A stretch of 48,778 bases of DNA from an uncultured Gammaproteobacteria bacterium. GTDB lineage: Bacteria > Pseudomonadota > Gammaproteobacteria > SZUA-229. Below, in pieces: positions 8,439 through 44,691 of the stretch. The notes under the pieces were generated by a model that worked only from the letters and a program-made list of their open reading frames with translations, ran no database searches and had not been told where the DNA came from. Where the stretch lies: contig CAJXZZ010000012.1 in the NCBI GenBank assembly GCA_913065105.1, positions 1-48,778 on the forward strand. Reading direction: 5' to 3'. Position numbers and translations under genes: made by a program. Each line of letters begins with the position of its first letter. Within the stretch, counting starts at the first letter, position 1.

Positions 8439-10499
8439 ATGACTATTGGTGTAATTAGCTATTCAATAAGCGCATTTACATTTCTAATATTTTTAGCAGT
8501 TCTGCTAACGGATAGACATAAGGGTGCAACAAAACAGGCATTGATTGTAGCAGCTACTATTAGTTGTGCCTGGTCTTTTGTGCTCGCCTATGAATCACTG
8601 TTACTAGCTGGTGAGATAAAAATTTCAATCATTGAATATTTTAAGAATGTTTCATGGTTGATTTTACTTATGCAGCTGTTAAGTGTTGTTTATAACGATC
8701 GTCTTAAAAATAAAACGATTAAAAAAATTCAGTACGCCATCTTAACCGCTATCGCTGTATTAATATTACCGATATTATCTGACTATGCTTTTGGTGTTTT
8801 CACTATTGCTCAAGTCGTATCTTATCTAACAGTATTAAATTTGTTGATGGTAATAATCGGCATTATCTTTGTAGAACAGCTTTATCGAAATACACAGGCA
8901 GAAAAAAAATGGGCAATTAAATATTTGTGTTTAGGCCTGTTGGGTATGTTCGTATATGATTTTTACCTATATGCAGATGGACTTTTATACCAGCACATTG
9001 ATCCAATTGCATGGCAAGCTAGAGGATTTATTTATGCGCTAACAGTGCCGCTTCTCGGGATTTCAGTATTGCGAGATCCTTTATGGTCACCAGAAATATT
9101 TATATCGCGGCGTGTTGTTTTTCATACCACGGCACTATTTGTGAGTGTTATCTATTTAATGATCATGGGGATTGCTGGTTATTATGTACGGAATTTTGGT
9201 GGTGACTGGGGGCTTGTAGCGCAATCGATAATTTTATTCATTACGATATTGATGCTTGCTGTTTTTATATCGTCAAGACGTATACGAGCGCGCATCAATG
9301 TTCTTGTCAATAAACATTTCTATCCATATAAATACGATTATCGTGAAGAATGGTTGCGGTTTATTCGTACACTGTCAACTTCCAGTGAAGAGAGTGAGCT
9401 TCATCACAATACAATTAAATCGATAGCTCAAATTATTGAAAGCCCGGGAGGGATGTTGTGGTTACGAGAAGATAGTGGTTTCTTTGTTTGTGTAGATACA
9501 TGGGAAATGCAACATGTAAGTGATCGTGAACCAACGGGAACCTCATTACCAAAATTTTTAGAAGAACATGAGTTTGTCATCAGTGTTGATGAGTACCTGG
9601 AACATCCAGAAGTATATGATCGTCTAGGTCATCTTGAATTTCCCGAGTGGATAAAAGTCATACAGCCATGGTTGATTGTCCCACTTATATATAATGACTT
9701 ATTAATTGGTTTTGTTGTACTTGACCACGCCACAGCGCGCACTGAATCATTTAACTGGGAAGACAGTGATCTATTAAAAACAGCTGCCCGTCAGGTTGCG
9801 GCATTTCTAGAACAGATGAAAGCGTCTAAAGCACTTGCTGAAGCTAAACAGTTTGAAGATTTTAATAAAGTATCTACCTATGTGATACATGATATAAAAA
9901 ATTTAATCGCTCAACTTTCATTGATATCCAGTAATGCCGAAAAACATAAAGATAACCCTCTTTTTATGGAAGATGTATTTAAGACCATCAATAATTCAGT
10001 TCTAAAAATGAATATAATGATGGAGGTGGTAAACGGTAAAATAACGTCAGCTAAATCAAGTAGTGTAAATATTATTTCTGTTCTTGAAGAACTGGTACAT
10101 CATCGACAAATTGCTGGAGGAAAACCCGTTCCAATCCTGGGGTGTGAATCATCATCTTTTTATGTAAAAGCTGACAGAAACCAGCTGCTCGCCATTCTTG
10201 GACATCTTGTTCAGAATGCACAGGATGCATCGGACGACCACGACAAAATAACCATCTCACAGAAACGTTCTCCCGATGGAGTAGTGATTGAAATTGAAGA
10301 TACAGGTAGCGGTATGAACGAGGATTTTATTAAAAACAATCTGTTTAAACCCTTCAAAACCACGAAAGGAAGTAAAGGTATGGGGATTGGTGTCTATGAA
10401 GCAAGAGAGATTATATTGGCGATTGGCGGTCAGATTGAAGTAAGTAGTGAAGTAGATGTTGGCACTTGTTTTAAACTCACTATTCCAGGTACGGCTTAA
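8439..10499 (+). CDS. prsK: PrsK-type sensor histidine kinase (PEP-CTERM/exosortase associated)
   Basis: This is the membrane sensor of the PrsK/PrsR pair, found in bacteria with exosortase/PEP-CTERM exopolysaccharide systems. The 686 residues begin with about nine membrane segments (roughly 1-290). A GAF-like domain follows (about 310-450), then a phospho-acceptor helix with His484 in VIHDIKNL, and a HATPase domain with an N box (QNAQDA near 592), DTGSGM near 624 and GIGVYEA near 651. The architecture and length match the PrsK family. It is followed 123 bp later by prsR. The signal sensed is unknown. The 207-bp gap before it contains a short imperfect hairpin and nothing else I can support. 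Confidence 0.9.
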   Translation: MTIGVISYSISAFTFLIFLAVLLTDRHKGATKQALIVAATISCAWSFVLAYESLLLAGEIKISIIEYFKNVSWLILLMQLLSVVYNDRLKNKTIKKIQYAILTAIAVLILPILSDYAFGVFTIAQVVSYLTVLNLLMVIIGIIFVEQLYRNTQAEKKWAIKYLCLGLLGMFVYDFYLYADGLLYQHIDPIAWQARGFIYALTVPLLGISVLRDPLWSPEIFISRRVVFHTTALFVSVIYLMIMGIAGYYVRNFGGDWGLVAQSIILFITILMLAVFISSRRIRARINVLVNKHFYPYKYDYREEWLRFIRTLSTSSEESELHHNTIKSIAQIIESPGGMLWLREDSGFFVCVDTWEMQHVSDREPTGTSLPKFLEEHEFVISVDEYLEHPEVYDRLGHLEFPEWIKVIQPWLIVPLIYNDLLIGFVVLDHATARTESFNWEDSDLLKTAARQVAAFLEQMKASKALAEAKQFEDFNKVSTYVIHDIKNLIAQLSLISSNAEKHKDNPLFMEDVFKTINNSVLKMNIMMEVVNGKITSAKSSSVNIISVLEELVHHRQIAGGKPVPILGCESSSFYVKADRNQLLAILGHLVQNAQDASDDHDKITISQKRSPDGVVIEIEDTGSGMNEDFIKNNLFKPFKTTKGSKGMGIGVYEAREIILAIGGQIEVSSEVDVGTCFKLTIPGTA

Positions 10500-10622: not shown

Positions 10623-11975
10623 ATGAATAATAATAAATTACTCGTCGTAGAAGACGACCCTGGTCTGCAGAGTCAGATTCGATGGTGTTTCGAAAATTAT
10701 GAAGTTTTACTGGCACATGACCGCCAATCTGCACTTGAGCAGGTAAAAAAGCATAAACCAGCCGTTGTTACACTTGATTTAGGGTTGCCACCTCATGAGG
10801 ATAATCCCAGTGAAGGGTTTGCCACACTGGAGCAAATATTAGAGCTAGATCCGAATATAAAAATAGTGGTCGTTACGGGGCAGGACGAGCGTGAGAATGC
10901 AATCAAAGCTATAGGGCTGGGCGCTTATGATTTCTATAGTAAGCCTTTTGAACCTGAAATTATTGGCTTAATCGTCAATCGTGCTTTTCGATTGCTTGAA
11001 CTTGAAGACGATAACCAGCGACTTCAGGCAACTACTATCAATCCTGAGCCATTCGCCGGTGTCATTGGTTGTAGCCCGCAGATGCAGACACTTTGCAAAG
11101 CTGTGGAAAAAGTTGCGCCTTCAGATGCGACTGTTCTACTGCTTGGTGAGAGTGGCACAGGTAAAGAACTCTGTGCTAAAGGATTACATACGCTTGGCTC
11201 AAACAGTGCAGGCCACTTTGTCGCAATAAACTGTGCCGCAATCCCTGAAACACTACTCGAAAGTGAATTGTTTGGTTATGAAAAAGGTGCCTTCACCGGT
11301 GCTAATAAGCAGACCATCGGTAAAATTGAATATGCTGATGGTGGCACCTTGTTTCTCGATGAAATGGGTGATTTACCGTTTGCATTACAGGCAAAATTAT
11401 TACGCTTTTTACAGGAGCGCGTCGTCGAGCGAGTCGGTGGGCACGCACCGATACCCGTAAATGTGCGTGTTGTCTGCGCTACCCACCAGAATTTACGCGA
11501 AAGAATTGAAAACGGTGAATTCAGGGAGGACCTTTTTTACCGTATAAGTGAAATTCCACTGGAAATACCACCGCTTCGAAACCGTGAGGGTGATGTTATT
11601 ATTTTGGCACGTTTTTTCTTTGACAAGTTTAACCAGGATCACAATCGTAAACTACGTGGTTTTACTAAAGATGCATTGAGTGCAATGGAGTCTTATTCGT
11701 GGCCGGGAAATGTCCGTGAATTGCAGAACCGTATTAAACGTGCGGTGATTATGACAGACGGTAAACAGATATCAGCAAGTGATCTCGAGTTGGACAGAAC
11801 TGCCTCAGAAACAATGAATTTTGATCTGCGTGATATTCGTGAGAAAGTTGAAAGGCAGGCAATATTGCGTGCTTTGTCACATGCGAATGGTAAAGTTGCA
11901 CCGGCTGCAGAATTATTGGGAGTTAGCAGACCGACGCTCTATGATTTAATCAAAAAATTACATATATCTGTTTAG
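10623..11975 (+). CDS. prsR: PrsR sigma-54-dependent response regulator
   Basis: PrsR is an NtrC-type activator that, when phosphorylated by PrsK, opens sigma-54 promoters of PEP-CTERM protein and exopolysaccharide genes. The 450 residues contain a receiver domain with phospho-acceptor Asp52, Thr85 and Lys107. The AAA+ domain has Walker A GESGTGKE (175-182), the sigma-54 contact loop GAFTGA (222-227) and Walker B FLDE (244-247). A Fis-type helix-turn-helix ends the protein (about 422-450). The receiver has the family's extended loop after LDLGLPP. A sigma-54 promoter with upstream dyads lies immediately downstream, so PrsR probably acts on its neighbour. No exosortase or PEP-CTERM substrate is in the window. 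Confidence 0.94.
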   Translation: MNNNKLLVVEDDPGLQSQIRWCFENYEVLLAHDRQSALEQVKKHKPAVVTLDLGLPPHEDNPSEGFATLEQILELDPNIKIVVVTGQDERENAIKAIGLGAYDFYSKPFEPEIIGLIVNRAFRLLELEDDNQRLQATTINPEPFAGVIGCSPQMQTLCKAVEKVAPSDATVLLLGESGTGKELCAKGLHTLGSNSAGHFVAINCAAIPETLLESELFGYEKGAFTGANKQTIGKIEYADGGTLFLDEMGDLPFALQAKLLRFLQERVVERVGGHAPIPVNVRVVCATHQNLRERIENGEFREDLFYRISEIPLEIPPLRNREGDVIILARFFFDKFNQDHNRKLRGFTKDALSAMESYSWPGNVRELQNRIKRAVIMTDGKQISASDLELDRTASETMNFDLRDIREKVERQAILRALSHANGKVAPAAELLGVSRPTLYDLIKKLHISV

Positions 11976-12020: not shown

Positions 12021-12067
12021 GTGTCAATATATTTTACACATCTGACATAGTAAAGGAACGTTTTACT
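12021..12067. promoter_or_regulatory. Two 19-bp dyads, candidate PrsR enhancer sites
   Basis: Dyad 1 (12021-12039) has arms GTGTCAA and TTTACAC, six of seven positions pairing around a 5-bp centre. Dyad 2 (12049-12067) has perfect arms AGTAAA and TTTACT around 7 bp. Both are 19 bp long, end in a TTTTAC half-site, and are centred 28 bp apart. They lie 47-93 bp upstream of a sigma-54 promoter, where NtrC-type activators bind. Assignment to PrsR is inference from position. Confidence 0.5.
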
Positions 12068-12113
12068 CGTTGGTATTGGTTATACTATTGATATTAATGT
12101 CTTTTAAATTGTT

Positions 12114-12129
12114 TGGCATGGAATATGCT
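12114..12129 (+). promoter_or_regulatory. Sigma-54 (RpoN) -24/-12 promoter
   Basis: TGGCATGGAATATGCT matches the -24 (TGGCA) and -12 (TGCT) elements, with the invariant GG and GC at the required spacing. Transcription would start near 12140, about 50 bp before the small ORF at 12191. Location just behind prsR makes this a likely PrsR target. Confidence 0.75.
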
Positions 12130-12190
12130 GTAATTATTTGTTATTACTTTGATGTGAAATACTTAACTGAACAGAACTGGAATTTTCGCA

Positions 12191-12334
12191 ATGGGCTCTG
12201 ATAATAATAACTATAAAGATCATGAACGCCGAGTCAATGACCGAAGAGAAAGGGATGATAGGCGTGGTACTACGAGGTTTAGCGATATGCTAGGTCGTCG
12301 TTCTGGTGTCGATCGCCGTTTGCCTACCAGATAA
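12191..12334 (+). CDS. Small Arg/Asp-rich protein, 47 residues, unknown function
   Basis: I do not recognise a named family. The ORF runs from ATG 12191 to TAA 12332-12334 and encodes a very basic, hydrophilic protein with no membrane segment or signal peptide. It has two related blocks, ERRVNDRR (residues 12-19) and GRRSGVDRR (35-43), both fitting RR-x(3)-DRR with one residue of slack. A polar N-terminus (GSDNNNNYKDH) precedes them. A weak ribosome site (CTGGA) lies about 12 bp upstream. Its strongest support is context: a sigma-54 promoter about 75 bp upstream, prsR before it, and csiV on the opposite strand after it, so it would be a one-gene transcript. Similar RRxxxDRR strings occur at the ends of some signalling proteins. 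An sRNA role for the transcript is the alternative. Confidence 0.55.
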   Translation: MGSDNNNYKDHERRVNDRRERDDRRGTTRFSDMLGRRSGVDRRLPTR

Positions 12335-12393: not shown

Positions 12394-13122
12394 TTACGGT
12401 TCTTTTATCTGTTCGATTTTTTCAACCGGATTTATCTGTATTAATAGTCCGACTAAAGGATGGTCTATGTAATGCAGTTCTTTACTGCGCATACGGCGAT
12501 GGCTTTGTATGGGGTAGGACTGTTTGATTAGATCATCATCTGTTTCATTAGCTTGTGTAGGACTATCGGTTATTGCATCAGCAGTATCAGTATTTATATT
12601 TTTCTTATCGTCTTGACGTTGGTAGTCTAAATCAGCGTAAAAATGCAGATACCTGGCCAGCACCACTTTGAGGTTACCGCTAATGCTATTTTCTGACTTA
12701 CCTGTGTGTGTATTAACAAGTTCATTGATATCTATTTCAAAGGCATTGGTCTCATCCAGGCCTGTTTGTCGCCATGCACTATAAAACAGTACGTTGTACT
12801 CTGATGAGCTGTTTATTCTTTTGTACTCATTACTGAGAATTTTAGGCTCCAGGGTTTCGTAGGCAGTTGCATTAATTTCATTTAGACTGAGCTCGTCTAA
12901 ATTTTCAGTGGGTTTATCGCTGACGATGACGTCAGTTGAGAGCTCAACTTCATCCGGAACATCTTTGTTCCATGTTTCACTGTTGATATAACGTGCATGA
13001 GTATCCTCAAAGATAATGATTTCAATCTCATATTCTTTCATATTGTCGGTTGTATTTTTTTCTTCAGCCAGTGGGGAATTGATTGATAAAAAAAGTAAAA
13101 AAAGCGTATTGAATATTTTCAT
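12394..13122 (-). CDS. csiV: CsiV-family periplasmic protein
   Basis: CsiV proteins are periplasmic, usually encoded next to mfd, and have been linked to peptidoglycan binding. From ATG 13122 the 242-residue protein begins with a signal peptide (about residues 1-18, cut after SPLA). It carries the family's N-terminal segment YEIEIIIFE followed by an acidic middle part. Its conserved C-terminal half includes VLFYSAWRQ, VVLARYLHFYADLDY, and RMRSKELHYIDHPLVGLLIQI near the end. A longer frame back to 13194 overlaps mfd, but starting at 13122 puts a signal peptide first and has a GAGAAT site upstream. The unstructured insert rich in Asp, Thr and Asn (about residues 178-210) is variable in the family. 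Confidence 0.85.
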   Translation of the reverse strand: MKIFNTLFLLFLSINSPLAEEKNTTDNMKEYEIEIIIFEDTHARYINSETWNKDVPDEVELSTDVIVSDKPTENLDELSLNEINATAYETLEPKILSNEYKRINSSSEYNVLFYSAWRQTGLDETNAFEIDINELVNTHTGKSENSISGNLKVVLARYLHFYADLDYQRQDDKKNINTDTADAITDSPTQANETDDDLIKQSYPIQSHRRMRSKELHYIDHPLVGLLIQINPVEKIEQIKEP

Positions 13123-13162
13123 TATAATTCTCGTGGTATGCATGTTTATCTTACATGGTTTG

Positions 13163-16100
13163 TTACGCGGCTTCCTGTATAGAGAGTGCGTCAATTACAT
13201 CATAAATTTGTTTCGCGCGTTGATCGATTTCTTCTGCAGATTTAAGTATGCGAAATGTTTGTTTGCCATCAAAGTGATAGAGCTTCGATTGTGTCTGTAT
13301 CAGTTCGATTAATTTCATATGGTTGATATTTGGTTGATCATTAAATTTAATTTTAATGATAGTGTCGGTCGCTTCGATGTTGGTTATACCGATGTTTTGC
13401 GCGACAAGTTTGATTTCGGTAACAGAGAACAGGTTTTTAAGATAATCGGGGAATAATCCAAAGCGATCGATTAGCTCGACGCGGATATCATCGAGTGAAT
13501 CTTTAGCATTGTTATCAGCAACACCGGCATTAGCAATGCGTTTATAAAGCATTAAGCGTTGGTGCACGTCATATACGTAGTCATCTGGAATTAATGCTGG
13601 TATACCAAGGTCGATTTCTATACCTGAATGTAACGGTTTGTCTAGATCAGGTACCTTGCCCTGTTTTAATGCAGTAACGGCACGCTCTAACAATTCACTG
13701 TATAAAGTAAAACCAATTTCGGAAATCTGGCCGCTCTGGTTTTCACCGAGTAATTCACCGGCGCCACGAATTTCTAAATCGTGTGTTGCCAGGGTGAAAC
13801 CGACACCCAGATCTTCCAGTGATTCGATCGCAGCAAGACGTTTTTTTGCATCTTCGGTCATCAAAGATTCCGGCGGCGTTAACAGGTAAGCGTAAGCGCG
13901 ATGATGTGAGCGACCGACACGACCTCGAATCTGATGTAATTGAGCTAAACCTAAACGGTCAGCCTTGTTGATAATAATAGTGTTTGCTGTCGGTACATCG
14001 ATACCGCTTTCGATAATGGTTGTGGCGACCAGAATATTAAAACGCTGATGATAAAAATCCAGCATCACCTGTTCCAGTTGTTTTTCAGGCATCTGGCCGT
14101 GGGCGAATTCAACACGGGCTTCTGGAATAAGCTGCTGTATGTCACGGGTTATTTTTTCTATAGTTTTTACTTCGTTATGCAGGACATAAATTTGTCCGCC
14201 ACGTTTTAATTCACGCTGACAGGCTTCAGTAATCAGGGCGTCATTCCATTGGGTAACAAAGGTGTTGATCGAATGCCTTTGCATCGGTGGCGTGGAAATA
14301 ATAGAGAGATCACGAATCCCTGCAAGTGACATGTTTAATGTTCTTGGAATAGGGGTGGCAGTAAGCGTCAAGATGTCAATCTCGGCGCGTAGTGATTTAA
14401 CGTGTTCTTTATGTCTGACGCCAAAACGGTGTTCTTCATCAACGATGATTAAACCTAGATCATCAAACTTGACGGTTTTCTGTAGTAGTTTATGGGTACC
14501 AATAACAATATCTACTTTTCCGTTGCTTAGATTTTCCAGGACCTCTTTTTGTTTCTTAGGCGTATTAAAACGTGACAGGCAGGCGACTTTTATTGGCCAG
14601 TCTGCAAAACGGTCAGTAAAGTTTTGAAAATGCTGCTGCGCTAATAGAGTGGTTGGTACTAAAACAGCAACCTGCTTGCCAGTGTTGGCAACGGCAAAAG
14701 CGGCGCGCATGGCAACTTCTGTTTTACCAAAACCAACATCACCGCAAACCACCCGGTCCATAGGTTGCTGGCTGCGCAGATCATCGAGCACTGCATTGAT
14801 GGTGGTTTCCTGGTCCGGGGTTTCTTCGAAAGGAAATCCATTGCAGAAACTTGCGTATTCATTTTCATCGATATGATATGCACGGCCCTGTATCGCAGCA
14901 CGGCGCGCATGAATATCAAGTAACTCGGCAGCGACATCGCGCGCCTGTTTGGCAGCTTTATTTTTAGCTTTAGACCATTGATCAGAACCCAGTTTATGAA
15001 GCGGGGCATTTTCTGCAGATGCGCCGGTGTAACGACTGATTAGATGCAGTGATGATACGGGTACATATAATTTATCGTTACTCGCATACTCCAGTAGAAG
15101 GAATTCGGCGTCATAACCGTCCCCGCTAAGTTTTTCCAGGCCTAGATAGCGGCCGACGCCATGATCGATATGAACCACGGGTGCACCGACGGTCAGGTCG
15201 GTAAGATTTTGTACGATGGCATCACTGTCGGCGCCGCGTTTTTTTCTGCGCCGTTTTTGAATGGCGCGTTGACCGTAAATCTGTGATTCAGTAATAACGG
15301 CGATATTAGTATCAAGCAGTACCAGGCCATGTGAGATTTCAGACACGGTAATGCAGATGGTGTCTTCGCAGGAAATAAATTCATGCCATGATTTGCATAC
15401 GCGCGGATGAATATGATGACTGCGTAACAGTTCCGTTAATACTTCACGCCGACCACTGGTTTCAGCGACAAATAAAATACGGCCTTGATATGTACTGATA
15501 TAGGTGTGTAACGCCTGCGCCGGTTCATCAAGTCGCGTCTGTAAAATAAGATCGGGTGGGGTTTTAACTTTTGCGTTGTACAGTTCATCGATATGTTTTT
15601 TATTCGATGTGTAGATTACGCTGGCTTGCTCTAATGTCTGTTCGATTTCACTGGTTGACTGGTATAGATGAGAAGGCGACAGGATAGGGCGTTCGATATC
15701 ATGGCGTCGTTGTTCGTAACGCTCGTTAACTTCGGCTTCAAAACTTTCTAGCTGTTGTTTTAATTCGTGTGGTGCGATGTAGAGTGACGATTTTGGTAAA
15801 TAATCAAATAACGTGTCGAGCGTGTCTTCGTCATAAAAAACCGGCAGGTAATATTCGATGCCTGAAGGCATGATGCCATCGCTGACACTTTTATAGATAA
15901 TACTGTTTAACGGGTCGCCGGATAACATCTCACGGTAACGTGATCGGAATTTTTTAATACCTTCTTCATTGGTTGGGAATTCGCGCGCAGGTAATAGCTC
16001 GACGTTTTCAACTTTGTTATCGGAACGTTGGCTCTGTGGGTCAAAGCAGCGAATGCTTTCTATTTCGTTATCAAATAAATCGATACGATACGGACTGGTT

Positions 16101-16627
16101 GAACCCGCTGGAAACAGATCAACGATAGAGCCGCGTATGGCAAACTCGCCATGCTCCATTACTTCATTAACATTAGAGTATCCGCTTGCTTCCAGGTCAC
16201 GGCGAAAACTTCCGATATCTAATTGTTGATTGATCTTAAGGTTTAAAACATTTCCCTGAATATAGCTGCGTGGTGCTAATCGCTGCGCCAGTGTATTTAG
16301 TGGGATGATTAAAATATCGCCGCCATGTATATGCTGCAGGGCGTGAAGGGTGGTTAGCCTTTCTGCAATAATATCCTGGTGGGGTGAGAAAATATCGTAA
16401 GGCAGCGTTTCCCAGTCGGGCAGGTGATAGATGGTCTGCTTTTTATCTTTGTAAAACTCGATCTCTTTTGTTAAGACGTCAGCATGGGTGACATCTTCGA
16501 CGATAACAACAACTGGGCCGTTAGCATGCGTGTTTGATGCTTCTACAATAGATAAGGCTAGCGAACTGCCATAGAGTCTATTCCAGTACGTCTTGCTCTT
16601 CTTTTCGGGGATTTGTAGGTGTAACAA
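13163..16627 (-). CDS. mfd: Transcription-repair coupling factor Mfd
   Basis: Mfd removes RNA polymerase stalled at DNA lesions and recruits UvrA for repair. The 1154 residues are a full-length protein. It has an N-terminal UvrB-like module (about 1-340), an RNA polymerase interaction domain around residue 480-540 (HIDHGVGRYLGLEKL), and an SF2 translocase with Walker A GDVGFGKTE near 628, DEEHRFG near 728 and the TATPIPRTL motif. A C-terminal TRCF domain ends it. The apparent start is TTG 16627; the frame stays open upstream to a TAA but offers no ATG, so the exact start is uncertain. csiV begins 41 bp after its stop on the same strand. Confidence 0.96.
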   Translation of the reverse strand: MLHLQIPEKKSKTYWNRLYGSSLALSIVEASNTHANGPVVVIVEDVTHADVLTKEIEFYKDKKQTIYHLPDWETLPYDIFSPHQDIIAERLTTLHALQHIHGGDILIIPLNTLAQRLAPRSYIQGNVLNLKINQQLDIGSFRRDLEASGYSNVNEVMEHGEFAIRGSIVDLFPAGSTSPYRIDLFDNEIESIRCFDPQSQRSDNKVENVELLPAREFPTNEEGIKKFRSRYREMLSGDPLNSIIYKSVSDGIMPSGIEYYLPVFYDEDTLDTLFDYLPKSSLYIAPHELKQQLESFEAEVNERYEQRRHDIERPILSPSHLYQSTSEIEQTLEQASVIYTSNKKHIDELYNAKVKTPPDLILQTRLDEPAQALHTYISTYQGRILFVAETSGRREVLTELLRSHHIHPRVCKSWHEFISCEDTICITVSEISHGLVLLDTNIAVITESQIYGQRAIQKRRRKKRGADSDAIVQNLTDLTVGAPVVHIDHGVGRYLGLEKLSGDGYDAEFLLLEYASNDKLYVPVSSLHLISRYTGASAENAPLHKLGSDQWSKAKNKAAKQARDVAAELLDIHARRAAIQGRAYHIDENEYASFCNGFPFEETPDQETTINAVLDDLRSQQPMDRVVCGDVGFGKTEVAMRAAFAVANTGKQVAVLVPTTLLAQQHFQNFTDRFADWPIKVACLSRFNTPKKQKEVLENLSNGKVDIVIGTHKLLQKTVKFDDLGLIIVDEEHRFGVRHKEHVKSLRAEIDILTLTATPIPRTLNMSLAGIRDLSIISTPPMQRHSINTFVTQWNDALITEACQRELKRGGQIYVLHNEVKTIEKITRDIQQLIPEARVEFAHGQMPEKQLEQVMLDFYHQRFNILVATTIIESGIDVPTANTIIINKADRLGLAQLHQIRGRVGRSHHRAYAYLLTPPESLMTEDAKKRLAAIESLEDLGVGFTLATHDLEIRGAGELLGENQSGQISEIGFTLYSELLERAVTALKQGKVPDLDKPLHSGIEIDLGIPALIPDDYVYDVHQRLMLYKRIANAGVADNNAKDSLDDIRVELIDRFGLFPDYLKNLFSVTEIKLVAQNIGITNIEATDTIIKIKFNDQPNINHMKLIELIQTQSKLYHFDGKQTFRILKSAEEIDQRAKQIYDVIDALSIQEAA

Positions 16628-19054: not shown

Positions 19055-19312
19055 ATGAGAATAGAATTAGTCACAACATTAAAGCGTCAGGCAACTAAGA
19101 TCCTTGCTGAGTTACATGATTCAAAAGAGCCTATACTGATAACAGAGCATGGTCAGCCATCAGCATATCTGGTTGATGTTCAGGACTATGAGATGATGAA
19201 AAATCGTATGCGTATCCTGGAAGGTGTTGCTAGAGGTGAAGCAGCCATTATAGATAATCGCACTTATACTCAATCTGAAGCAAAAGAGAAAATGAGTAAA
19301 TGGCTCAAATAA
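19055..19312 (+). CDS. Phd/YefM-family antitoxin
   Basis: This is the antitoxin and probable autorepressor of a type II toxin-antitoxin pair. The 85 residues have the Phd/YefM N-terminal DNA-binding fold, including ILITEHGQPSAYLVDVQDYE (about 27-46), then a helical C-terminus that would wrap the toxin. It overlaps the toxin gene by 13 bp, typical of coupled TA genes. The upstream dyad ends 2 bp before the ATG and there is no Shine-Dalgarno sequence, so the mRNA may be almost leaderless. Confidence 0.9.
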   Translation: MRIELVTTLKRQATKILAELHDSKEPILITEHGQPSAYLVDVQDYEMMKNRMRILEGVARGEAAIIDNRTYTQSEAKEKMSKWLK

Positions 19313-19620
19313 TATGGACGGAGCCTGCTTTATTAGATCTTAATGAAATTGCAGAATATATAGCACTTGATAAACCAGACGCTGCTAGTCATTTTGTTCA
19401 GACAGTATTTTCAAAAACAGGACGTCTTGAAGAGTTTCCGGATTCAGGGCGTAACCCACCAGAATTAAAGAAGTCGAGATATAAAGAAATTATCGTTAAT
19501 CCTTGCCGTATTTTTTATCGTATTGAGAAAGATAGAGTGTACATACTTTATGTAATGCGAAGTGAAAGAAAGCTGCGAAAATATTTACTGAGCGAAAGAT
19601 CTAAAGAAAGTAGTGATTAA
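19300..19620 (+). CDS. ParE/RelE-superfamily toxin
   Basis: The 106-residue protein is the toxin partner of the Phd-like antitoxin. It has the ParE-like N-terminus (IIWTEPALLDLNEIAEYI), the SGRNPPEL turn, and the RIFYRIEKDRVYILYVMRSER strand-helix end. ParE-type members poison DNA gyrase and RelE-type members cleave ribosome-bound mRNA. Sequence alone favours ParE but does not settle it. A short AT-rich hairpin (ACTTTAAT at 19625-19632, ATTAAAGT at 19641-19648) follows the stop and may end the transcript. Confidence 0.88.
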   Translation: MAQIIWTEPALLDLNEIAEYIALDKPDAASHFVQTVFSKTGRLEEFPDSGRNPPELKKSRYKEIIVNPCRIFYRIEKDRVYILYVMRSERKLRKYLLSERSKESSD

Positions 19621-44232: not shown

Positions 44233-44691
44233 TTATTGTATTTGGTTTTTTGGCACTTACGACTATTTTAAATTTAACTTGTGTTTTTTGCCTTTGACGG
44301 GCAAGTCGCTTTTCTTTCAATAGCAAAAGAAAAGTAACCAAAAGAATGCCATCCCGATTCGATTGCCCCGAGAAAAACACTCGGGGTGCCTGAATCCTCA
44401 GCTATTGCCTACGAGCCGCCTTGACGCGCTATCCGTGCGCGCAAGGCTAAATTCGCCTTCCCTGGCGAATTTACTCTACCAATAACTAAGCATTCAGCAA
44501 TCGAAAGGGGAATCTAAAAACAAATAAAGAAACAAATAAAGAAACAAAACGGTGGAGTCAAAATAAAAAAATAACAGCGGACATGGTTTGTGGTGAATGA
44601 TTACCGTTTGCCACCGACCACTTTAATTCCGTTTTATTGCGGCGTCACTATCGAACGACTTGTCACGGGACTGTACATTAAGCTGAGTTGT
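44233..44691. repeat. 458-bp spacer with four successive hairpins and a 12-bp tandem repeat
   Basis: No gene is seen. Hairpins are: CTTTTCTTT/AAAGAAAAG (44309-44317, 44326-44334); CCCCGAG/CTCGGGG with 7-nt loop (44366-44372, 44380-44386); GCCTTG/CAAGGC with an inner CGCGC/GCGCG stem (44418-44447); and TAAATTCGCC/GGCGAATTTA with a 6-nt loop (44448-44473). AAACAAATAAAG is then repeated twice with a third partial copy (44518-44548). The first part resembles an intergenic repeat widespread in Gammaproteobacteria and may also end the convergent transcripts. Confidence 0.65.

Follow-up and report, generated by a model that had tools for sequence, protein, structure and literature searches.

A small arginine-rich protein gene under a predicted PrsR box in a gammaproteobacterial genome without detectable exosortase

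The prsK-prsR locus and its neighbourhood

The stretch of DNA analysed here (the window) comprises 48,778 nucleotides from an uncultured gammaproteobacterium, whose genome (G000) is a draft assembly of 3.06 Mb in 147 contigs, 99.7% complete. The named relatives used for comparison are metagenome-assembled, marine-type Gammaproteobacteria, one of them called Thiotrichaceae. The genes for a sensor kinase and an enhancer-binding response regulator, prsK and prsR, are followed by a small open reading frame (ORF) and its control region, and then by two genes on the opposite strand:

8439-10499, + strand: prsK, sensor kinase (TIGR02916, 718.9 bits, cut-off 300)
10623-11975, + strand: prsR, enhancer-binding response regulator (TIGR02915, 700.5 bits, cut-off 502.6)
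12022-12038, + strand: TGTCAATATATTTTACA, motif 1 of the PrsR box and probably the enhancer site for PrsR (strict pattern, literature match, footprint)
12082-12097, + strand: ATACTATTGATATTAA, a conserved element lying between motif 1 and motif 2 (A/T/TGA/T columns that do not vary in the footprint)
12113-12129, + strand: motif 2, sigma-54 -24(GG)/-12(GC) promoter, TTGGCATGGAATATGCT (GG and GC invariant in aligned orthologues)
12191-12334, + strand: small ORF of 47 codons, 47-residue protein MGSDNNNYKDHERRVNDRRERDDRRGTTRFSDMLGRRSGVDRRLPTR
12394-13194, - strand: csiV homologue, convergent with the small ORF (PF10972, 120.1 bits; adjacency in relatives)
13163-16627, - strand: transcription-repair coupling factor gene beyond csiV, which we take to be mfd (syntenic homologues in relatives)

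Elsewhere the window carries a ParE-type toxin gene (19300-19620, + strand; PF05016) and a TwoAYGGAY RNA of Rfam (44375-44512, - strand), the latter with a score of 43.5 against a gathering threshold of 43.

The small ORF as a coding gene

An earlier note on this DNA had described a 47-residue Arg/Asp-rich ORF with two RRxxxDRR-like blocks. Both blocks, RRERDDRR and RRSGVDRR, are present in the protein, which contains 13 Arg, 7 Asp and 2 Glu residues. The conservation in related genomes that the note had proposed to look for was found, with orthologues in 18 of the 54 genomes of the family (E < 1e-12). Across the 19 copies of the comparison set, 11 Arg residues are invariant, encoded by up to six different codons per position. 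Pairwise differences at codon positions 1, 2 and 3 are 0.378, 0.261 and 0.645, respectively, so the third-position comparison, also suggested in the note, fits coding constraint. In the closest pair, dN is 0.14 and dS is saturated. Taken together, the invariance of Arg under varying codons, the codon-position differences and the relation of dN to dS argue that the small ORF is translated into a protein under purifying selection. That it is a real coding gene we regard as close to certain.

The same note also raised the alternative that the transcript may function as an RNA; we considered it in the form of a regulatory RNA whose ORF is only incidental. In its favour, a sigma-54 promoter would be expected to give a short stand-alone transcript, but the codon-level constraint is strong, the fold z-score is +0.62, no better than shuffles, and the transcript region has no match in Rfam. 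An RNA gene at this position was rejected on these three grounds, and we give the idea hardly any weight.

Neither the small ORF nor the wider homologues tested (see below) match a family in Pfam or NCBIfam, no Pfam family appearing up to E 10, which bears out the view of the ORF as undescribed. Searches of phages and IMG/VR gave no match, and a phage or viral origin was rejected on that basis. A plasmid search with one member of the wider family also found none. One genome, G067, has a decayed second copy with three stops adjoining csiV (contig C22, L126), the intact copy lying about 3.5 kb off.

The PrsR box upstream of the small ORF

Haft et al. (2006; PMC1569441) described proteobacterial PEP-CTERM genes as preceded by a 17-nt motif 1 ending in TTTACA and, after a spacer of 32-92 nt (mean 63), by a sigma-54 motif 2 whose end lies on average 71 nt (range 23-221) upstream of the start codon. 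In Aquincola, a promoter of this kind, that of pepA, has been shown to depend on RpoN (PMC9850573). The window matches the strict PrsR-box pattern at 12022-12128. Motif 1, at 12022-12038, fits the published 17-nt motif with its TTTACA end, the spacer to motif 2 is 74 nt, and the -24/-12 site TTTGGCATGGAATATGCTG, with GG at 12115-12116 and GC at 12127-12128, lies 61 nt from the ATG of the small ORF, all within the published ranges. The near-consensus -24/-12 promoter of the earlier note is thus one half of a complete PrsR box, whose motif 1 the note did not mention.

The same arrangement of motif 1, spacer and sigma-54 site precedes PEP-CTERM genes of relatives in the family. A weight matrix built from 27 of their PEP-CTERM promoters, with the small-ORF promoters left out, gives a score of 41.0 at the window site, compared with 12.6 at the next best site of the window and a maximum of 26.8 in 20 shuffles. 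With this PEP-CTERM-trained matrix, 14 of the 19 orthologous upstream regions score 27.9-42.0. The G006 region falls below that range; there the box is intact and some 180 nt of additional DNA separate it from the start. In G062 and G071, also outside the range, the site is recognisable by eye; the G023 region has a degenerate site at best, and no PrsR-box site was found upstream of the small ORF in G022. The strict pattern has 52 matches in the 54 genomes and none with a reversed-pattern control. At least 27 of these boxes precede PEP-CTERM proteins, as read from the downstream ORFs, and six precede the small ORF (G000, G005, G006, G011, G058 and G067).

A phylogenetic footprint of ten orthologous upstream regions retains motif 1, motif 2 and a third element between them. 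The GTC and TTTAC columns of motif 1 are invariant or nearly so. The third element, at 12082-12097, is possibly an IHF or accessory site. We consider it very probable that the small ORF is under PrsR-box control, and its activation by PrsR is a well-supported prediction; the earlier note's choice of this ORF as a likely PrsR target is in keeping with the complete box.

The spacers between motifs 1 and 2 in the family, in PEP-CTERM and small-ORF promoters alike, cluster around 52, 63, 74 and 95 nt. The values differ by one or two turns of the helix, which is what a need for the activator to sit on one face of the DNA would be expected to produce.

Gene order and PrsR lineages

csiV is the near neighbour of the small ORF in 16 of 18 genomes, with mfd usually next where the contig reaches, and prsR lies directly upstream in G000, G015 and G058 only. 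In G012 and G033, prsR is found on the same strand at a distance of about 12-13 kb. Given these counts, the small ORF is tied to the csiV-mfd locus, prsR being near in a subset. The position beside prsR, which the earlier note took as the setting of the ORF, therefore holds in three genomes but is not the conserved context.

PrsR falls into two main lineages in the family, and G000 has two prsR copies, on contigs C12 and C77. The small ORF is present in 9 of the 13 genomes with the PrsR lineage of the window versus 9 of the 41 without it (Fisher p = 0.003, shared ancestry ignored). Sixteen PrsR-positive genomes have no detected small ORF. Conversely, five ORF-positive genomes, some of them incomplete, have no PrsR above the model cut-off (G030, G022, G062, G060 and G070); their assemblies may be incomplete or another activator may use the box. 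Strict boxes also occur where no PrsR exceeds the cut-off (G059, G061, G063, G029, G027, G022, G031, G068 and G073), reflecting either assembly gaps or another activator.

The association with one PrsR lineage and the adjacency to prsR in three genomes are in line with the idea that the small protein modulates the sensor kinase PrsK in a feedback loop. There is precedent in the DUF1127 proteins, Arg-rich proteins of about 50 residues that bind the PhoR kinase, one of them binding RNA (PMC12501420). However, roughly one in ten of the sampled gammaproteobacterial genera has a relative of the small protein, most orthologues lie away from prsR, and five genomes have the ORF and no PrsR above the cut-off, so that we hold such feedback on PrsK to be improbable. 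The likeness to DUF1127 proteins (YjiS, SDP1-3, CcaF1; PMC12501420) extends to size, Arg content, the stand-alone form and, probably, cytoplasmic location. Unlike them, the window protein has no DUF1127 or other Pfam match and follows another sequence pattern, and DUF1127 proteins are not known to be controlled by sigma-54.

Properties of the small protein

The sequence of the window protein has no signal peptide and no hydrophobic stretch, and the protein is probably cytoplasmic. The AlphaFold model has a mean pLDDT of 55.6, a low confidence, with no confident fold, and no solved structure was found for the family in searches with its profile and members. The protein is basic (pI 11.3), with a net charge of about +4.6, and Asp or Glu precedes most of its Arg pairs. 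The repeated acid-Arg-Arg units suggest folding induced on an anionic partner.

That partner might be RNA or DNA, in which case the protein could act post-transcriptionally on exopolysaccharide (EPS) genes. The high pI, the many Arg residues and the lack of a fold by itself are in line with such a role, and CcaF1 is a small Arg-rich protein that binds RNA (cited in PMC12501420). However, the acidic residues before most Arg pairs and the small net charge are less so, and we think a nucleic acid binder rather unlikely.

A wider family and the c-di-GMP question

When 369 genomes of the class were searched with a profile, 32 genomes in 28 of 272 genera proved to have a relative of the small ORF. 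Most of these wider homologues are small and carry the core RRxxxDRRxxxRF...RRxGxDRR, which the window protein shares; they differ in having longer N and C termini and often a Trp-containing tail. The window protein belongs to this broader group, an unnamed family of small RR/DRR proteins of Gammaproteobacteria. Outside the family of the window's genome, a scan for the sigma-54 site alone in the 250 nt upstream of the wider homologues found none of the TGGCAY type; one homologue (L092) has a TGGCGC-type site at -84. No protein family recurs among 76 neighbours of the wider homologues, so no single partner is indicated.

Some members suggest another ligand. The arginine-rich regions (ARR) of the Cle proteins of Caulobacter bind c-di-GMP through a tandem [YF]xGP[DE][RK]R motif (PMC5677366), and the small protein could be a free-standing peptide of this kind that senses or buffers c-di-GMP during the EPS programme. 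The exact motif (YNGPERR, YTGPERR and others) is present in 6 of 19 orthologues, the G033 and G012 proteins included, and in 17 of 34 wider homologues, versus about none in composition shuffles, relatedness being uncorrected. Imperfect second copies of the RSGVDRR type follow 11-30 residues further along. These second copies have no aromatic residue and no Pro, so the family has no Cle tandem, and the window protein itself reads YKDHERR at the site of the exact motif. The solved ARR of CleD (PDB 6sft), which includes AYVGPDRRRFNSADYKGPRKRKAD, was found with a made-up probe of the published motif and shows what a CleD ARR looks like, not homology; it has no sequence match to the family profile or members. 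Moreover, the 76 neighbours include only one EAL and one GGDEF domain. The small proteins thus have in part a motif in common with the Cle ARR peptides (PMC5677366; 6sft) but, unlike them, neither a fusion to a receiver domain nor the tandem. Because the tandem is lacking and the motif is lost from the window copy, the c-di-GMP reading may serve as a lead rather than an assignment, and we doubt that it is correct. A broader form appears equally doubtful to us: that the peptide is an intracellular branch of PrsK-PrsR that binds c-di-GMP or another nucleotide, couples the EPS/PEP-CTERM programme to a second messenger, outlived the exosortase in some genomes and belongs to a widespread, unnamed ligand-binding family.

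A possible intracellular output of the PrsK-PrsR regulon

In the literature that we found, PrsR is discussed as an activator of exported PEP-CTERM proteins. The locus resembles the PrsK/PrsR/sigma-54 regulon of the PEP-CTERM/exosortase system (PMC1569441) in having motif 1, spacer and -24/-12 site, adjacent prsK and prsR, and EPS-related genes upstream. The known targets are mainly exported PEP-CTERM proteins, whereas the target in the window is a 47-residue protein, probably cytoplasmic, with no match to the C-terminal PEP-CTERM domain and no signal peptide. A further difference is that this target is retained in the absence of any detected exosortase or PEP-CTERM protein: a search of G000 for exosortase (PF09721) and PEP-CTERM proteins (PF07589, TIGR02595) found none. 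The sole other strict box of G000, on contig C55, is followed by a short reading frame that looks secreted and ends at an early stop. In view of these two results the small ORF is, of the PrsR outputs predicted for G000, the clearest intact one. The small ORF is likewise present with no detectable exosortase in G058, G060 and G062, where completeness is 92%, 69% and 84% and absence is less certain.

In G017 (contig C393, L223), an exosortase sits between prsT and prsR. At the second prsR copy of G000 (contig C77, L219), the prsT-like and prsR matches are only 334 bp apart, and comparison with G017 suggests that the exosortase was lost from this locus.

The small ORF is part of an undescribed family of small proteins and, as we read it, a cytoplasmic, non-PEP-CTERM output of the predicted PrsR regulon. 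We propose that phosphorylated PrsR would bind motif 1 and activate sigma-54 RNA polymerase at the -24/-12 site, giving a short mRNA for the 47-residue basic protein, made together with PEP-CTERM proteins in genomes that have their genes. The protein would then fold as an arginine clamp on an anionic partner and, from inside the cell, adjust the exopolysaccharide response. Candidates for this partner are RNA, c-di-GMP and an acidic segment in a sensor or EPS enzyme. We infer both the clamp mode of binding and the level of translation of the small ORF. An intracellular arginine-clamp regulator with an anionic ligand is the likeliest of the descriptions considered for the protein, plausible though somewhat short of probable; the explanation as a whole, a small-protein gene of the PrsK-PrsR regulon whose product adjusts the EPS response in this way, is the best that we can offer and one we lean towards.

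That an almost perfect PrsR box stands before the gene of a conserved protein which is probably cytoplasmic suggests an intracellular arm of the regulon. Feedback on exopolysaccharide production is a role for which this compact protein is a candidate. In a genome with no detectable exosortase or PEP-CTERM proteins, it suggests a role that PrsK-PrsR may still have. The family is also of interest for its spread: it occurs in about one in ten sampled gammaproteobacterial genera, yet is absent from Pfam and NCBIfam.

Other PrsR boxes precede small or membrane proteins. In genus g13, a second small protein lies under a PrsR box (L171, L173, L174, L175 and L207, from G059, G062, G063, G029 and G058, respectively); it has about 55 residues, one N-terminal hydrophobic segment and a basic RYGExIKRxV tail, with no Pfam match. 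At L208 (G058, contig C302), a PrsR box stands before the gene of a DUF5658 membrane protein; the N-terminal tail of that protein carries the same type of motif, ERRxxxDRR, as the small protein.
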